From the IMG/VR virus record IMGVR_UViG_3300032311_000172, positions 1 through 21,736 of that record: a DNA stretch of 21,736 nucleotides; one strand, 5' to 3'. Made by a program: the position numbers and the translations under genes. Shown piece after piece: positions 1,046 to 9,713 of this stretch; the first letter of the stretch is position 1; each line of letters starts with the position of its first letter. The notes below the pieces were generated by a model. That model made no database searches. It was not told the origin of the DNA and worked only from the letters and a program-made list of their open reading frames with translations. Origin of the DNA: a virus.

Positions 1046-2533
1046 ATGCAAGTTCCAAAGTTTAGAGATTTTATAAACGAGGCTAAAAAACCTAAAGACA
1101 ACGAACCAATTACAGTAGTTGTTATTACCAAATCTTCGCCTAAAGTAAGAAAACAAAAAACTGGTAATCGTAAGACTAAAAAAGAAATCACAGTTAGTTT
1201 TATACAAAGGTCTTGTAAGAAAAGAAAAATACCTTGTTTTATAATCAATACTAAACACTCAATCATTACAGATAAAGATGAAGAAAAAAATTCATTAACC
1301 ATTTATAACTATGATGGTGAAGATGGTGAACATACTTTCATAGGTAAAAACACAGTTGTTATTACTAGAGCAGGTGCTATTGAAGATGAAGCAGGCCTTT
1401 CTTTAATATCAGCCTTTCAAAATTCTGGTGCATTTATGTTAAACACTAGATCATCAATGTTAACTTGTGATAATAAACTCACGTCTGCTTTATTATTTGA
1501 AAAATTTAATATACCTACACCAAAGACTGCCTTTGTATCTAATGAAAAGAACATAGATAGTGCATTAAAGATTATAGGTAATAAATTTCCAGTTGTGGTT
1601 AAAACATTAACAGGCACACAAGGTATTGGTGTTGTAAAAGTAGATAGTTACGACTCATTAATATCAGTAGTACAAGCTTTATTTAAACACGATGCCGAGT
1701 TATTATTACAAGAATATATGCCAACAGATTTTGATATAAGAACCTTTGTTGTTGATAACAAAATATTTGCTTGTACAAAAAGAGTAAAAGCAAAAGGTGA
1801 ATTTAGATCAAACGTTCATAGAGGTGCGGTAGCAGAACCATACAAACTATCAGATGAAGAAATAGAAATAGTTTTAAGAACGGCCAGAGCATCAAAGGCA
1901 TACATTGTAGGTGTAGATCATATTATATTTAAAGATAAAATTTATGTATTAGAAGTTAACGGTTCACCAGGCACAGGTGCTGATTACGAAGGATATCATT
2001 ACGAAGATTATGCCGATACACCTAATACAACAGGCCCAATTAAAGGTAAACAACTAGTAGATAATATAATTGATTATATAAACGATAGGGACAATTGGGA
2101 TCGTCAATCAATAATAGAAGTAGGTTATATTGAAACAATAGAATTAGATGGCGTAGGTAAAGTAAGAGCAAAATTAGACACAGGTAATGGTGCTGAAGTC
2201 AGTGCATTACACGCCGAAGAAATAGATATTAAAGATGGTAAAGTTTCTTGGAAATATGATGGTAAAAAACATACAAGTAAACTTGTTCGTAAAGTAAAAA
2301 TTTTTAGAGCAAACGTAGATGACGACAAAGGCGAAGAAAGGCCAGTGGTTAAATTAGACTTAACGTTTAATGGGTTTGTTTATAAAGATGTAGAATTTGG
2401 TCTTGATGAAAGAATCAGATCACGTAATGACGTGTTGTTAAATAGGGATATGATAAGAAAATTTAACGCCTCGGTAAATCCCAACCGAGAGTTTGTGTTA
2501 AGTAGAAGAATCAAACCTATTGACAAAAAGTAA
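1046..2533 (+). CDS. RimK-like ATP-grasp ligase fused to RimB-like retropepsin/zinc-protease domain, with capsid-targeting-like N-terminus
   Basis: A 495-residue two-domain protein. Residues about 20-350 are an ATP-grasp amino-acid ligase of the RimK type: Lys186 in VVVKTLTGTQGIGVV (ATP-binding and glycine-rich loop), LLQEYMPTDFDIR, and the metal site LEVNGSPG (302-309). RimK adds glutamates to the C-terminus of ribosomal protein S6. Residues about 356-490 resemble the RimB/Zn_protease (PF05618-type) retropepsin-like fold: LDTGNGAEVSALHA with candidate catalytic Asp378, and VLLNRDMIRKF near the end. In bacteria these are usually separate genes of the rim system. The first 13 residues, MQVPKFRDFINEA, look like a T4 capsid-targeting and gp21-cleavage sequence. 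The gene directly follows regA. Domain calls are confident; the ribosomal target and packaging are inference. Confidence 0.85.
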   Translation: MQVPKFRDFINEAKKPKDNEPITVVVITKSSPKVRKQKTGNRKTKKEITVSFIQRSCKKRKIPCFIINTKHSIITDKDEEKNSLTIYNYDGEDGEHTFIGKNTVVITRAGAIEDEAGLSLISAFQNSGAFMLNTRSSMLTCDNKLTSALLFEKFNIPTPKTAFVSNEKNIDSALKIIGNKFPVVVKTLTGTQGIGVVKVDSYDSLISVVQALFKHDAELLLQEYMPTDFDIRTFVVDNKIFACTKRVKAKGEFRSNVHRGAVAEPYKLSDEEIEIVLRTARASKAYIVGVDHIIFKDKIYVLEVNGSPGTGADYEGYHYEDYADTPNTTGPIKGKQLVDNIIDYINDRDNWDRQSIIEVGYIETIELDGVGKVRAKLDTGNGAEVSALHAEEIDIKDGKVSWKYDGKKHTSKLVRKVKIFRANVDDDKGEERPVVKLDLTFNGFVYKDVEFGLDERIRSRNDVLLNRDMIRKFNASVNPNREFVLSRRIKPIDKK

Positions 2534-2877: not shown

Positions 2878-3224
2878 TGATAACAATATACTTTGTAAGA
2901 AACGGCTCTAAGATTAGAGTTGAGGTACCTATTGGCCGTACAGTAATGGAAGCGGCTAAGTATTTTAGTCCAGTTTCTATACCAGAAATACCAGGCGATT
3001 GTGGTGGCAGTTGTGCTTGTGCTACTTGTCATATCTATGTTGATGAAAAATGGATAGATAAATTGTCTAAGATAAATGATAATATGGCAGAATTAGAATT
3101 GTTAGAATATGAAAAAGGATATAAAAAAGATATTAGTAGATTAGGTTGTCAAATTTATTTAAGTAAAGAACTTGACGGATTGACTTTACATTTAAAAAAT
3201 GATGATACTAAAACCATTGAATAA
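2877..3224 (+). CDS. [2Fe-2S] ferredoxin, adrenodoxin/ISC type
   Basis: A 115-residue ferredoxin. The cluster ligands follow the adrenodoxin pattern C-x5-C-x2-C...C: Cys42, Cys48, Cys51 and Cys91, within GDCGGSCACATC and RLGCQI; Cys46 is an extra cysteine in the binding loop. ATG at 2877 overlaps the previous stop as TGATG; a TTG just upstream at 2874 is a poorer start. Such proteins carry single electrons to oxygenases, Fe-S assembly or radical enzymes. Unlike plant-type ferredoxins of cyanophages, this type is not photosynthetic. It sits directly before and overlapping the Mom-like gene, so it may donate electrons to that DNA-modification step; this pairing is inference from neighbourhood only. 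Confidence 0.93.
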   Translation: MITIYFVRNGSKIRVEVPIGRTVMEAAKYFSPVSIPEIPGDCGGSCACATCHIYVDEKWIDKLSKINDNMAELELLEYEKGYKKDISRLGCQIYLSKELDGLTLHLKNDDTKTIE

Positions 3225-3984
3225 GTACACAGCAGCTGAATTTGTATCAACAAGACATTATTCAGCAGTAATGCCTAAACTTACAAAACACTATCTTGGT
3301 TGTTTTTTAAGTGATGAACTAGTAGGTGTAATTACCTTTGGTTGGGGAACAAGACCTAAACATACTATACAAAAGTTATTTCCACAATTAGATACAAAAG
3401 ATTATTTTGAAATAGGTAAGATGTGTATGGACGATAAGATGCCTAGAAATTCAGAATCACAATTACTTTCATTGTCTATTAAATGGTTAAAAGAAAATAC
3501 AAACATTAAATATCTTTTTACTTGGGCTGATGGTTTAGTTGGCAAACCTGGTTATGTATATCAATCTGCTAACTTTTTGTATGGTGGATTTTCTATAACT
3601 GATACTTATGTTACTGAACAAGGAGAAAAGGTACACCCTAGAACTATGCAAGGCCATATACCAAATACTAAAAATAGAAAATATGGTATGAGACCTAATC
3701 CAAAACAATTAATAGAATTAAAATTAAGTAGAGTAAAAGGTAAACAATTTAGATACATTTATCCTATGACCAAAAAAGACCGAAAGTTTTTAAAAAAATC
3801 AACAGTACAATGGTCATTAAATTATCCTAAAGATAAAGATTTGATTTGGTATATAAAAAAACCTGGTGAAACAGAATACACAGAAACAAATAAGATGCCA
3901 TTTGACTTATCTAAAGAAATGGTATATAATAAAAAAAATGTTAATATGTATAAAAGTGAAAGTAATTTAAGTGAATTTCTATAA
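3199..3984 (+). CDS. Mom-family DNA adenine modification protein (GNAT-like)
   Basis: About 261 residues (start at 3199 or at the adjacent ATG 3202). The central region carries hallmarks of the phage Mu Mom-related family: HYLGCFL...LVGVITFGWGTRP, IGKMCMDDKMPRNSESQLL, and TWADGLVGKPGYVYQSANF with GGF following. Mu Mom has a GNAT-like fold and converts adenine in DNA to N6-carbamoylmethyladenine, which blocks many restriction enzymes. The C-terminal third (FRYIYPMTKKDRKFLKKS, then WSLNYPKD) is an extension seen in T4-like relatives. It overlaps the ferredoxin by 26 bases and the polymerase by 14. The family call is from recalled motifs; the exact adduct made here is unknown. Confidence 0.72.
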   Translation: MMILKPLNKYTAAEFVSTRHYSAVMPKLTKHYLGCFLSDELVGVITFGWGTRPKHTIQKLFPQLDTKDYFEIGKMCMDDKMPRNSESQLLSLSIKWLKENTNIKYLFTWADGLVGKPGYVYQSANFLYGGFSITDTYVTEQGEKVHPRTMQGHIPNTKNRKYGMRPNPKQLIELKLSRVKGKQFRYIYPMTKKDRKFLKKSTVQWSLNYPKDKDLIWYIKKPGETEYTETNKMPFDLSKEMVYNKKNVNMYKSESNLSEFL

Positions 3985-6460: not shown

Positions 6461-6648
6461 TGAACTGGTTATTATATACATTACCAAAAAATAAAAGATT
6501 TCATTATCTTATTTGTTTATGGTTATCTTTAGTACTTGTGCCATCATTATTTGATAATAAACTTACAGTTACACAATCTTTTTTTAATTTTATATGTTAT
6601 GACATTTTATATTATTACCTATTAATAAGAGGACACTTTGATAGATGA
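6460..6648 (+). CDS. Small putative membrane protein
   Basis: A 62-residue hydrophobic protein linking the polymerase and the MT-A70 gene: its ATG overlaps the polymerase stop (TAATG) and its stop overlaps the next ATG (ATGATA at 6645). Two hydrophobic stretches, LICLWLSLVLVPSLF (about 18-32) and FFNFICYDILYYYLLI (about 41-56), suggest one or two membrane segments with Lys/Arg-flanked ends. I recognise no family. The tight coupling on both sides argues that it is real. Confidence 0.6.
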   Translation: MNWLLYTLPKNKRFHYLICLWLSLVLVPSLFDNKLTVTQSFFNFICYDILYYYLLIRGHFDR

Positions 6649-7181
6649 TACCATTTCCTAATAAAAAATATAAAGTAATATATGCTGATCCACCTTGGTA
6701 CTTTAAATCATATAGTAAAAAAGGTGAAGGAAGAAATGCTACACAACATTATGATTGTATGAAGATTGAAGATATTAAAAATTTACCAGTTAAAGATATA
6801 TCAGAAAATGATTCAACTCTATTAATGTGGGTAACAGATCCTTTTTTAAAAATGTCATTTGAAGTTATTGAGTCTTGGGGATTTAAATATAAAACTGTTG
6901 CATTTACTTGGGTAAAAACAAATAAAAAAAGTCCAGGATATTTTAAAGGTTTGGGTTATTGGACAAGAGCCAATCCAGAAATGTGTTTGTTAGCAACTAA
7001 AGGTAAACCTAAAAGAATATCAAATGGTGTAGATCAATTAGTGGTATCTAAATTAAGAGAACATTCAAAAAAACCAGATGAAGTTTATGAACGTATTGAA
7101 AAATTATTAGAAGGACCTTATATAGAATTGTTTGCTCGTAATAAAAAAGATAATTGGTCTAGTTGGGGAAATCAAGTATAA
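6645..7181 (+). CDS. MT-A70-type adenine-N6 DNA methyltransferase
   Basis: A 178-residue SAM-dependent methyltransferase. The catalytic DPPW is at residues 15-18, preceded by YKVIYA, and the downstream pattern LLMWVTDPFL, SWGFKY, TWVKTNKK, YWTRANPEMCLLATKG, REHSKKPDEVYERIE and ELFAR is the classic MT-A70 phage/prophage type (beta-class permuted order). It should methylate adenine N6 in a short DNA motif, protecting phage DNA or marking it. Length is normal for compact phage forms. Its start overlaps the small membrane gene; a sigma70-type promoter for the C5-methyltransferase follows its stop. Confidence 0.92.
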   Translation: MIPFPNKKYKVIYADPPWYFKSYSKKGEGRNATQHYDCMKIEDIKNLPVKDISENDSTLLMWVTDPFLKMSFEVIESWGFKYKTVAFTWVKTNKKSPGYFKGLGYWTRANPEMCLLATKGKPKRISNGVDQLVVSKLREHSKKPDEVYERIEKLLEGPYIELFARNKKDNWSSWGNQV

Positions 7182-7189
7182 TTAGTTTA

Positions 7190-7218
7190 TTGACATTATT
7201 TAAAAACTATGATAGAAT
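7190..7218 (+). promoter_or_regulatory. Sigma70-type promoter upstream of the C5-methyltransferase/CmoA-like pair
   Basis: TTGACA at 7190-7195, a spacer of exactly 17 bases, and TAGAAT at 7213-7218 (one mismatch to TATAAT). It lies in the 52-base gap after the MT-A70 gene. Predicted start near 7225 leaves a leader of under 10 bases before ATG 7234, with no good Shine-Dalgarno, so translation would be nearly leaderless. Confidence 0.75.
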
Positions 7219-7233
7219 GAATATTATTATATT

Positions 7234-8391
7234 ATGAAATACGAAAAGTATTATTTAAAAGACGTTTTAGCAGGTGAGAAGAAAGAACTGTTTACCGTAG
7301 TATCCACCTTTGCAGGCGGTGGTGGTTCATCAACAGGTTATCGTTTAGCTGGTGCAAAAATACTTGCAGTAAATGAATTTGTAGAAGAAGCAAGAAAAAC
7401 ATATTTAGAAAATTATCCTAATACTATTATTATACCTGATGATATAAAAAAATTAACAGGTAAAGATTTTTTAGATAAACTTAATTTAAAACCGGGTCAA
7501 TTAGATATCCTAGATGGATCGCCACCGTGTTCTGCATTTAGTATGGCAGGTTCGGTATCTCACGGTAAAGGTAATACACACGAAGATGCATTTGGTAAAA
7601 CAAAACAGTATTCTGATATTAAAGGTGTAACCAATGTAGAAGATTTATTTTTTGAATTTTTAAGAATAGCAAACGATATTAAACCTAAAGTCATTATAGG
7701 AGAAAATGTTGCAGGATTAACTATGGGTAAAGCAAAAGAATATTTCCATAAGATACAAGCAACATTTGAAAGTATAGGCTATCACGTGTCAGCTAAAGTA
7801 TTATCTGCTCATAATTTTAATGTACCTCAATCCAGAGAACGTACATTTTTTATAGCATTAAGAGAAGATGTAGCAGACAAAATAGGTTATTCGTTTTTAA
7901 ATATATCTTCAATTTTTCCAAAAGAAAATGATGAGTTTGTATCTCTAGGTGAAGCAATAGATGATATTGAAAACGATAAACAAGAAATAGAATACTTGAC
8001 AAAAGCATTAGGACCTGATAAAACTGTAGGTAAGACTTTGGCTAAGATGCCTAAAAATCCTGACAAAGTATTAACTGGTATGGACTATCACGACAAAGGA
8101 CATCATTTTAATTTAAAACGTACAAGTAGAAAACTTCCTTGTCCTACTATAACTGCTTTAGGTAATTTAGCAGGTATCGCTGGAGTTTGTCATTATAATG
8201 AAGATAGAAAATTTACAATAAAAGAACTAAAAAGAATTATGTCTTTACCAGAAGATTTTATATTAACAGGAGAACATAAGAAACAATCTGAACGTATAGG
8301 TAGAATGGTTCCACCACTAATGATGAAAGCATTAGCTGAATCAGTTTATAATAATGTTTTGAAACCATATAAGGAGAAATATAATGACTAA
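7234..8391 (+). CDS. DNA cytosine-C5 methyltransferase with atypical motif X (Asn to Arg), candidate carboxymethyltransferase
   Basis: A 385-residue C5-methyltransferase with canonical motif order: motif I STFAGGGGSSTGYRLAG (24-40), motif IV DGSPPCS with catalytic Cys99, motif VI GENVAGL (Glu157), motif VIII QSRERT (199-204), target-recognition region about 215-310 ending in CPTITALGN, and motif X QSERIGRMVPPLM. The last normally reads IGN(S/A/M)VPP; here the Asn is Arg357 (codon AGA, 8302-8304). That Asn lies by the SAM sulfonium, and a basic residue there is reported (as I recall, for E. coli Dcm and M.MpeI variants) to permit carboxy-SAM and yield 5-carboxymethylcytosine. The gene overlaps the CmoA-like gene by 8 bases. 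Target sequence is not predictable. Confidence 0.93.
   Translation: MKYEKYYLKDVLAGEKKELFTVVSTFAGGGGSSTGYRLAGAKILAVNEFVEEARKTYLENYPNTIIIPDDIKKLTGKDFLDKLNLKPGQLDILDGSPPCSAFSMAGSVSHGKGNTHEDAFGKTKQYSDIKGVTNVEDLFFEFLRIANDIKPKVIIGENVAGLTMGKAKEYFHKIQATFESIGYHVSAKVLSAHNFNVPQSRERTFFIALREDVADKIGYSFLNISSIFPKENDEFVSLGEAIDDIENDKQEIEYLTKALGPDKTVGKTLAKMPKNPDKVLTGMDYHDKGHHFNLKRTSRKLPCPTITALGNLAGIAGVCHYNEDRKFTIKELKRIMSLPEDFILTGEHKKQSERIGRMVPPLMMKALAESVYNNVLKPYKEKYND
8371..8376 (+). promoter_or_regulatory. Strong ribosome binding site for the CmoA-like gene
   Basis: AAGGAG seven bases before ATG 8384, inside the end of the methyltransferase gene. It fixes the start of the CmoA-like gene and implies translation at a level independent of simple stop-start coupling. 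Confidence 0.85.
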
Positions 8392-9061
8392 GTTTACATT
8401 TGCAACGTCAGAAGAAGGTTTTGATAATCATATAGAAACATCTGTAAGAGGTTATACTAATTTATGGGGTGATGTTTTATCTATGTCAAAGTATTTTGTA
8501 GAAGATAATACTAATATTGTAGATTTGGGTTGTTCAACAGGTAAGCTATTAAAGTCTATGATAGAACAAAATAAAAAACATATACCCAATGCAAAGTATA
8601 TAGGTATAGAAATAGAAGAAGATTTTTTTAGTAACTATGATAATGATGAGAAATTATATAATACATTAAAATATTATAAAGGTGACGTAAGAAAGTTTAA
8701 TTTTCAAAATTGTAGTTTGGTAACATCTATATTTACATTACAATTTATGCCACCAAAAGATAGAGAGAATACAATCAATAGGATATATCAAGGATTAAAT
8801 CACGGTGGCGCATTTATCTTTTCTGAAAAAACTTTTAGTTGCGATCCTCAAGTGCAAGATATGATGACCTTTATGTACTATGATTATAAAAGAAAAAATT
8901 TTTCTGAGAAAGAAATACTAGATAAAGAAGTACAATTAAGGCATATGATGAAACCTAATACTAAAACAGAAATATTTGATATGTGTCATAAGGCAGGATT
9001 TAAGACTCACGTCTTTTGGCAGAACTTTAATTTTTTAGGAATTGTTGCTATAAAGAAATAA
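8384..9061 (+). CDS. CmoA-like carboxy-S-adenosylmethionine synthase homologue
   Basis: A 225-residue class I SAM-binding protein that matches CmoA along its length rather than a generic methyltransferase: SVRGYTNL (20-27), VDLGCSTGKLL (46-56), SIFTLQFMPP (115-124), INRIYQGLNHGGAFIFSEK (131-149), YDYKRKNFSEKEI (166-178), HKAGFK and FNFLGIVAIKK at the end. CmoA converts SAM plus prephenate to carboxy-SAM, used by CmoB for tRNA uridine; no CmoB is visible here. In my hand alignment the E. coli Arg199 that binds the carboxylate corresponds to Glu182, with Arg186 one helical turn on, so the exact product is uncertain. It overlaps the C5-methyltransferase gene, whose Arg357 would suit carboxy-SAM. 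Confidence 0.8.
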   Translation: MTKFTFATSEEGFDNHIETSVRGYTNLWGDVLSMSKYFVEDNTNIVDLGCSTGKLLKSMIEQNKKHIPNAKYIGIEIEEDFFSNYDNDEKLYNTLKYYKGDVRKFNFQNCSLVTSIFTLQFMPPKDRENTINRIYQGLNHGGAFIFSEKTFSCDPQVQDMMTFMYYDYKRKNFSEKEILDKEVQLRHMMKPNTKTEIFDMCHKAGFKTHVFWQNFNFLGIVAIKK

Positions 9062-9074: not shown

Positions 9075-9127
9075 AACTTATATATATTGATTTGAGGTGG
9101 AAAATAAATTGTAAAATTTTTAGAGAG

Positions 9128-9589
9128 ATGGAACAAAACAAACCGTTAATACACAAACATTTAATTATTAGAGCCGAAGTGAAAAACCCACCAAAGAACG
9201 AAGAACAACTAACAAACTGGTTAAAAGATTTTATAACTTTTATTGATATGAAAGTTTTAATGGGACCTTATGTTAAGTACTGTGATAAAGTAGGTAATCG
9301 TGGTATTACAGGTGTAGCTGTTATTGAAACAAGCCATATAGCAATGCACGTATGGGACGAAACAGATCCCGGGACTATGCAGTTTGACGTTTATAGCTGC
9401 TCAGAATTTGACCCTTATAAGATAGCAGATAAACTACAAGCTGATTTTGATGTAGTAAAACTAGACTATAAGTTCCTTAATAGAGAAACTGAATTGAAAC
9501 CAATAAGATTAAAAAAAGATACAATGAAAAATTATGCAAATAGTAATAATCAACAGACTTCAGAACCCACCCTATTTAATATCTCCTAA
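9128..9589 (+). CDS. S-adenosylmethionine decarboxylase (SpeD) family proenzyme
   Basis: About 153 residues from ATG 9128 (a TTG at 9092 in frame would add 12 residues lying over the likely leader and GAGGTGG). The core GVAVIETSHIAMHVWDE...MQFDVYSC matches the self-cleaving SpeD family: Ser69 as pyruvoyl-forming residue, His74 and Cys91 at the usual relative positions, with two extra residues in the loop before Cys91. The cleavage junction is Thr-Ser rather than the common Glu-Ser. SpeD makes decarboxylated SAM for spermidine; some homologues decarboxylate ornithine or arginine instead. It is common in marine T4-like phages. Here it follows a late promoter and another SAM-converting enzyme. 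Substrate is uncertain. Confidence 0.8.
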   Translation: MEQNKPLIHKHLIIRAEVKNPPKNEEQLTNWLKDFITFIDMKVLMGPYVKYCDKVGNRGITGVAVIETSHIAMHVWDETDPGTMQFDVYSCSEFDPYKIADKLQADFDVVKLDYKFLNRETELKPIRLKKDTMKNYANSNNQQTSEPTLFNIS

Positions 9590-9713
9590 CTTCCATCCAA
9601 AAGAACTTGACAGTTTAAAGGAAATGTTATATAATGAGAATATCAAATACGTATTAATATCTAGTGAAAAGGAGAACTTAGAATATGAGCAATTTTTTAA
9701 AAGACATAATTAA
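9534..9713 (+). CDS. Possible 59-aa protein bridging the speD-like and uvsX genes
   Basis: An open frame from ATG 9534 to TAA 9711-9713, overlapping the end of the speD-like gene and the first 29 bases of uvsX. It fills what would otherwise be the longest gap (95 bases). The translation looks protein-like ([19 protein letters not shown], then [11 protein letters not shown] and a C-terminal EQFFKRHN), but there is no good Shine-Dalgarno for ATG 9534, and the uvsX promoter lies inside it. It could start at ATG 9624. I recognise no family, and chance openness is not excluded. Confidence 0.4.
9607..9635 (+). promoter_or_regulatory. Consensus sigma70 promoter upstream of uvsX
   Basis: TTGACA at 9607-9612, a 17-base spacer, and TATAAT at 9630-9635: a perfect match. 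Start expected near 9642, giving a leader of about 43 bases with AAGGAG at 9669-9674, ten bases before ATG 9685. It would drive uvsX, the small conserved gene, gp41 and probably the gene at 12335. Confidence 0.85.

Follow-up and report, generated by a model that had tools for sequence, protein, structure and literature searches.

Known carboxymethylation systems

Carboxymethylation of phage DNA cytosine was reported in December 2025 for Synechococcus phage S-B43, whose CmoX and CmoA together make 5-carboxymethylcytosine (Yang et al., Nat Commun 2025, 17:281; PMC12783734). S-B43 CmoX is a DNA cytosine C5-carboxymethyltransferase, S-B43 CmoA is active, and no CmoB was reported in this phage (PMC12783734). 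In the 1.9 Å structure of SpCmoX with carboxy-SAM (8yf3), Arg350 touches the carboxymethyl group; SAM is not used by the wild-type enzyme, and the R350N substitution abolishes activity with either cofactor (PMC12783734). SpCmoX prefers GC sites, and DNA modified in vitro by the S-B43 enzyme resists HhaI (PMC12783734). A further enzyme of S-B43, the ligase CmoY, adds glycine to 5-carboxymethylcytosine, and in the virion DNA the glycine amide is present while the bare base is not detectable; the published survey counted 5,615 CmoX, 4,257 CmoA and 2,251 ligase candidates (PMC12783734). A basic residue at the motif X Asn position also permits carboxy-SAM use in M.MpeI N374K (cited in PMC12783734). 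In E. coli CmoA, the carboxylate is bound by Arg199 (PMC3663124).

A cmoX-cmoA pair in a T4-like phage fragment

The window, which is the whole stretch of 21,736 nucleotides analysed here, represents part of a larger T4-like genome and carries homologues of both genes (Table 1). With a probability of roughly 0.92, we assign the pair to the published CmoA-CmoX type of DNA-modification module. Since the chemistry has already been published for a related phage, the window pair is not a first; it widens the known range of this recent modification to a T4-like group that has been sampled widely and whose closest isolate, judged by DNA polymerase, is a SAR11 phage, and what is noteworthy here is a pair without CmoY, the enzyme known to cap the carboxymethyl group.

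Table 1. Features of the window discussed in the text
Feature	Position	Strand	Evidence and remarks
RimK-type ATP-grasp ligase fused to a PF05618 domain	1046..2533	+	PF08443, E 2.6e-41
Mom-family DNA modification gene	3199..3984		PF25680, E 2.8e-52; shortly before PolB
MT-A70 adenine methyltransferase	6645..7181	+	PF05063; usual upstream neighbour of the pair
Sigma70-like promoter, TTGACA-17-TAGAAT, TG before the -10	7190..7218	+	11/12 consensus, ahead of cmoX
cmoX	7234..8391	+	385 aa, DNA cytosine C5-carboxymethyltransferase homologue; PF00145, 8yf3 identity, predicted fold
Arg357 codon, motif X IGRMVPP	8302..8304	+	in cmoX
cmoA	8384..9061	+	225 aa, carboxy-SAM synthase homologue; TIGR00740, predicted fold
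SpeD (AdoMet decarboxylase)	9092..9589		
Sigma70 consensus, TTGACA-17-TATAAT	9607..9635		12/12 consensus, ahead of the UvsX gene at 9685

The first gene matched the profile of C-5 cytosine DNA methylases (PF00145, E 1.8e-53). Its residues bear out what had been read from the letters, namely intact SPPC (Cys99), ENV (Glu157) and QxRxR (Arg201/Arg203) motifs together with a motif X of RIGRMVPP, in which residue 357 is Arg at the position of the family Asn. In the alignment, Arg357 corresponds to the carboxylate-binding Arg350 of SpCmoX, and because 120 of 121 near homologues readable at that column share it, the sole exception being a Leu from a different methyltransferase type, it is not a product of chance or of sequencing error. 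The identity to SpCmoX is 59.4% over 372 aligned residues, and all 13 active-site positions compared are identical, with the Arg350/Arg357 position among them. A PDB sequence search returned 8yf3 first (E 2.3e-144) and M.HaeIII next (4e-19). Similarly, a Foldseek search with the AlphaFold2 model (mean pLDDT 81) placed 8yf3 at the top, with a TM-score of 0.94 by target length and an E value of 1.1e-42, compared with about 1e-19 for HhaI and others.

The second gene begins within the first, and the 8-base overlap claimed earlier is confirmed by the ORF coordinates (8384-8391). The resemblance of its product to CmoA is also upheld: the best models were those of NCBIfam CmoA (TIGR00740, 127 bits, E 9e-37), the predicted fold was closest to E. 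coli CmoA (4gek/4iwn), and the identity is 50% to SpCmoA and 53% to the CmoA of Synechococcus phage S-CRM01. The score of 127 bits lies below the curated TIGR00740 cut-off of 193 bits, as does that of the active SpCmoA (115.6 bits). E. coli Arg199 aligns with Glu182 of the window CmoA and E. coli Glu203 with Arg186, a charge swap between positions one helical turn apart that is also found in the active SpCmoA and in all the cyanophage-type CmoAs aligned. The clamp Arg of the window-type CmoA may therefore have shifted by one helical turn, and the swap, which by itself speaks against the assignment, does not refute a CmoA function, because the active SpCmoA is arranged alike. With a C5-methyltransferase fold bearing its motifs, the motif X Arg and a cmoA gene in the same genome, the first product has the features of a CmoX, and the second has those of a CmoA in both best model and best fold.

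In the proposed pathway, CmoA would convert SAM and prephenate to carboxy-SAM. Cys99 of CmoX would then attack C6 of cytosine, and the carboxymethyl group of carboxy-SAM would be transferred to C5, with Arg357 gripping the carboxylate and so selecting carboxy-SAM over SAM. The enzyme would be expected, by homology to S-B43, to prefer GC sites, and 5-carboxymethylcytosine could shield the phage DNA from restriction and, more conjecturally, from other defences. This carboxymethyl-transfer chemistry, put forward in the sequence-only reading, is supported by the conserved active-site residues and by its demonstration in the closest characterised homologues, and 5-carboxymethylcytosine, which that reading had described as an unnatural base, is made by natural phage enzymes in the S-B43 system (PMC12783734). 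Judging from homology, the module of the window is almost certainly functional. Avoidance of the GC dinucleotide as a sign of modification was not seen in the window (GpC observed/expected 1.11).

The promoter proposed before the pair is present as a site, at 11 of 12 consensus positions; as a signal it does not stand out, as promoter-like sites in this AT-rich stretch were not more frequent than in shuffled sequences (26 vs 21.4 +/- 5.6). A perfect consensus site also precedes the UvsX gene (Table 1).

The motif X arginine tracks CmoA

The co-occurrence of Arg and CmoA, suggested earlier as a check, was examined in three tests on partly independent data, drawn from isolate genomes, from IMG/VR and from genome contigs of bacteria and archaea; Arg without CmoA was not common. 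A CmoA match was found somewhere in the genome of all six Arg-type isolate phages examined (S-B43, S-CRM01, Erwinia pEa_SNUABM_28, Moraxella Mcat8, Streptomyces TurkishDelight and Pseudomonas PaBG), and in none of the seven isolate phages with Asn, Met or Leu at the site. In the IMG/VR profile scan, CmoA lay within about 4 kb of 79 of the 85 Arg-type homologues vs 0 of 81 non-Arg homologues, and in the bacterial and archaeal contigs it lay near 10 of 13 vs 0 of 64, counts for which Fisher values overstate the independence because the contigs share ancestry. Among the three Arg-type bacterial or archaeal contigs lacking CmoA, two had a CmoY-like gene and one had its Arg-type gene at the contig end. 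The association had the same direction across distant groups. Leu-type IMG/VR homologues had a TET/JBP oxygenase in 64 of 80 cases and CmoA in none of the 80. The pairing of Arg with CmoA and of Leu with TET/JBP, and the lack of both beside Asn or Met, form a clean natural set that could be used for predicting the product base of phage C5-methyltransferases from sequence.

These counts bear on a more conventional explanation, in which an ordinary 5-methylcytosine methyltransferase with a harmless Arg happens to stand beside a CmoA serving tRNA wobble modification (cmo5U). The PHROGs labels would fit it, as the CmoA family is called a tRNA methyltransferase and the CmoX family a DNA methyltransferase, and so would the CmoA score under the curated cut-off. 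However, SpCmoX, 59% identical and with the same Arg, rejects SAM, and its R350N mutant is dead with both cofactors (PMC12783734); moreover, Arg and CmoA occur together across unrelated phages and bacterial contigs, and non-Arg homologues were never found with CmoA nearby. We consider this explanation highly improbable, and the carboxymethylation module is retained as the reading of the pair.

Several loci depart from the common pattern. Two staphylococcal isolate phages have CmoA and a Gly at the aligned motif X site; in both (L205:4950-7468 and L206:4983-6682) CmoA adjoins a C5-methyltransferase with the motif X VGGVINQL, and L205 also has a CmoY-like gene. The Gly-type enzyme possibly represents a second mode of carboxy-SAM recognition, which the published search, being based on the Arg, would not cover. 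At L367:3656-5098, a close homologue of CmoX has Asn at the site (LGNSVPP) and lacks a CmoA neighbour; it could have reverted to ordinary methylation or resemble an ancestral state. Alcaligenes phage Afa-NA1 has a CmoA-like gene (L207:4917-5669) and, about 2.5 kb off, a gene annotated as a DNA adenine methylase; no C5-methyltransferase is among the annotations of that stretch.

A module without CmoY

The earlier expectation of carboxymethylated cytosines is supported for the chemistry and is less settled for the finished base, given that the native end product in S-B43 is the glycine amide made by CmoY and that CmoY was not found here. No Asn-synthetase-like AMP-forming ligase of the CmoY type was present among the ORFs of the window, and no Asn_synthase domain (PF00733) was detected in 50 whole contigs (up to 40.9 kb) with close CmoX/CmoA relatives. 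S-CRM01 (178 kb) and Mcat8, both with complete genomes, also had no Asn-synthase gene, and the former had neither a RimK match nor an AMP-binding ligase (PF00501). These absences suggest that bare 5-carboxymethylcytosine may be the end product, and we put the chance that it is the finished virion base in the window lineage, S-CRM01 and Mcat8 at about even or slightly lower. It would place negatively charged cytosines in the major groove. We found no report of bare 5-carboxymethylcytosine as the finished base of a native phage, and the branch without CmoY poses the question of whether this base can itself be the protective end point or serves in every case as a handle for later modification.

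Alternatively, a CmoY-type ligase could be encoded outside the 21.7-kb fragment, the end product then being a glycine or other amide as in S-B43. The incompleteness of the T4-like genome allows for this, and in an Erwinia jumbo phage CmoX is separated by about 15-20 kb from CmoA and from an Asn-synthase match. Against it, where fetched loci do have CmoY, the ligase stands beside the pair and normally no more than 4 kb from cmoX, and the Asn_synthase domain is missing from the 50 relatives' contigs and both complete genomes. An unlinked CmoY thus seems possible, though somewhat less probable than the bare base.

Amidation by a ligase other than CmoY was also considered, for which the RimK-type protein is the best local candidate. 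ATP-grasp RimK enzymes couple amines to carboxylates. The chemistry would be suitable, the PF08443 match is clear (Table 1), and many CmoX contigs have RimK in the same replication region. However, the same gene stands beside regA in relatives without cmoX-cmoA (60-99% identity), it also occurs without CmoA in Methylophilales phage Melnitz, it accompanies CmoY in contig L192, and the complete S-CRM01 genome combines CmoX and CmoA with no RimK match. Being kept equally in relatives without the pair, RimK was mostly rejected as a CmoY substitute, and this route appears quite unlikely. SpeD was rejected as a dedicated polyamine supplier for amidation, because it is equally found in relatives without cmoX-cmoA and is absent from many with the pair. 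When the neighbours of 134 CmoX-CmoA loci without CmoY were clustered, mainly MT-A70 and a 102-aa ORF recurred specifically, and no substitute ligase was recognised among them.

In L192 (1229-5819), CmoX, CmoY and CmoA are directly followed by a DAHP/KDO8P-synthase-like gene (PF00793) and a serine hydroxymethyltransferase gene (PF00464), the latter of which could supply glycine for CmoY.

Neighbourhood and possible exchange of the modification genes

The gene order in the window and its near relatives is PolB, usually MT-A70, CmoX, CmoA, sometimes SpeD, and then UvsX. MT-A70 is probably not part of the pathway, because it is also present where cmoX-cmoA is absent. The Mom-family gene near PolB indicates that the phage may hypermodify adenine besides cytosine; Mom, MT-A70 and CmoX, three putative base-modifying enzymes, lie within 6 kb.

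In sister IMG/VR contigs, a DruA-like protein (PF14236, phrog_19197; for example L089:14618-15718, L094, L112-L116, L120, L122 and others) stands where the window has CmoX-CmoA, and the RegA, RimK and UvsX of these contigs match the window at up to 96-99%. CmoX and the DruA-like gene were never found together on a fetched contig. The PolB identity to the window is 99% in the closest CmoX relatives vs 65-70% in the DruA-type contigs, and since the PolB allele differs with the occupant of the site, the modification genes look like an exchangeable block including PolB; any functional cause for the PolB link would be hypothetical. In L154:968-2745 (the same contig as L382), a DruA-like gene followed by an intact cmoA, without cmoX, lies between MT-A70 and SpeD, an arrangement that looks like a recombination junction. 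As the DruA-like gene precedes cmoA in only this one of about 80 contigs, it was rejected as a general alternative user of carboxy-SAM, and a profile comparison showed no similarity between it and Mom.

Among isolates, Pelagibacter phage Mosig has the closest DNA polymerase (69%), and the host is therefore plausibly SAR11-like; no CmoX match was found in Mosig.

Comparison with known systems

Both enzymes of the window are homologous over their full length to those of S-B43 (59% for CmoX and 50% for CmoA), and the catalytic residues, the carboxy-SAM-binding residues and the charge arrangement of CmoA are common to both phages. They differ in gene order, which is CmoX and then the overlapping CmoA in the window but CmoA-CmoY-CmoX in S-B43, and in that the window has no CmoY and has MT-A70 and a Mom-like gene near the pair. 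S-CRM01 resembles the window in its adjacent genes (58% CmoX and 53% CmoA identity) and in having no Asn-synthase ligase in its complete genome, whereas its CmoA precedes CmoX and its pair lies ahead of regA rather than after PolB. Melnitz and its relatives, which belong to the same phage family, have a homologous methyltransferase (41% identity) in a similar place after PolB, but with Leu at the motif X site, a Tet_JBP oxygenase and no CmoA. M.MpeI N374K, like the window CmoX, has a basic residue at the motif X Asn position; it is engineered and prefers CG, whereas the basic residue of the window CmoX is natural and conserved.
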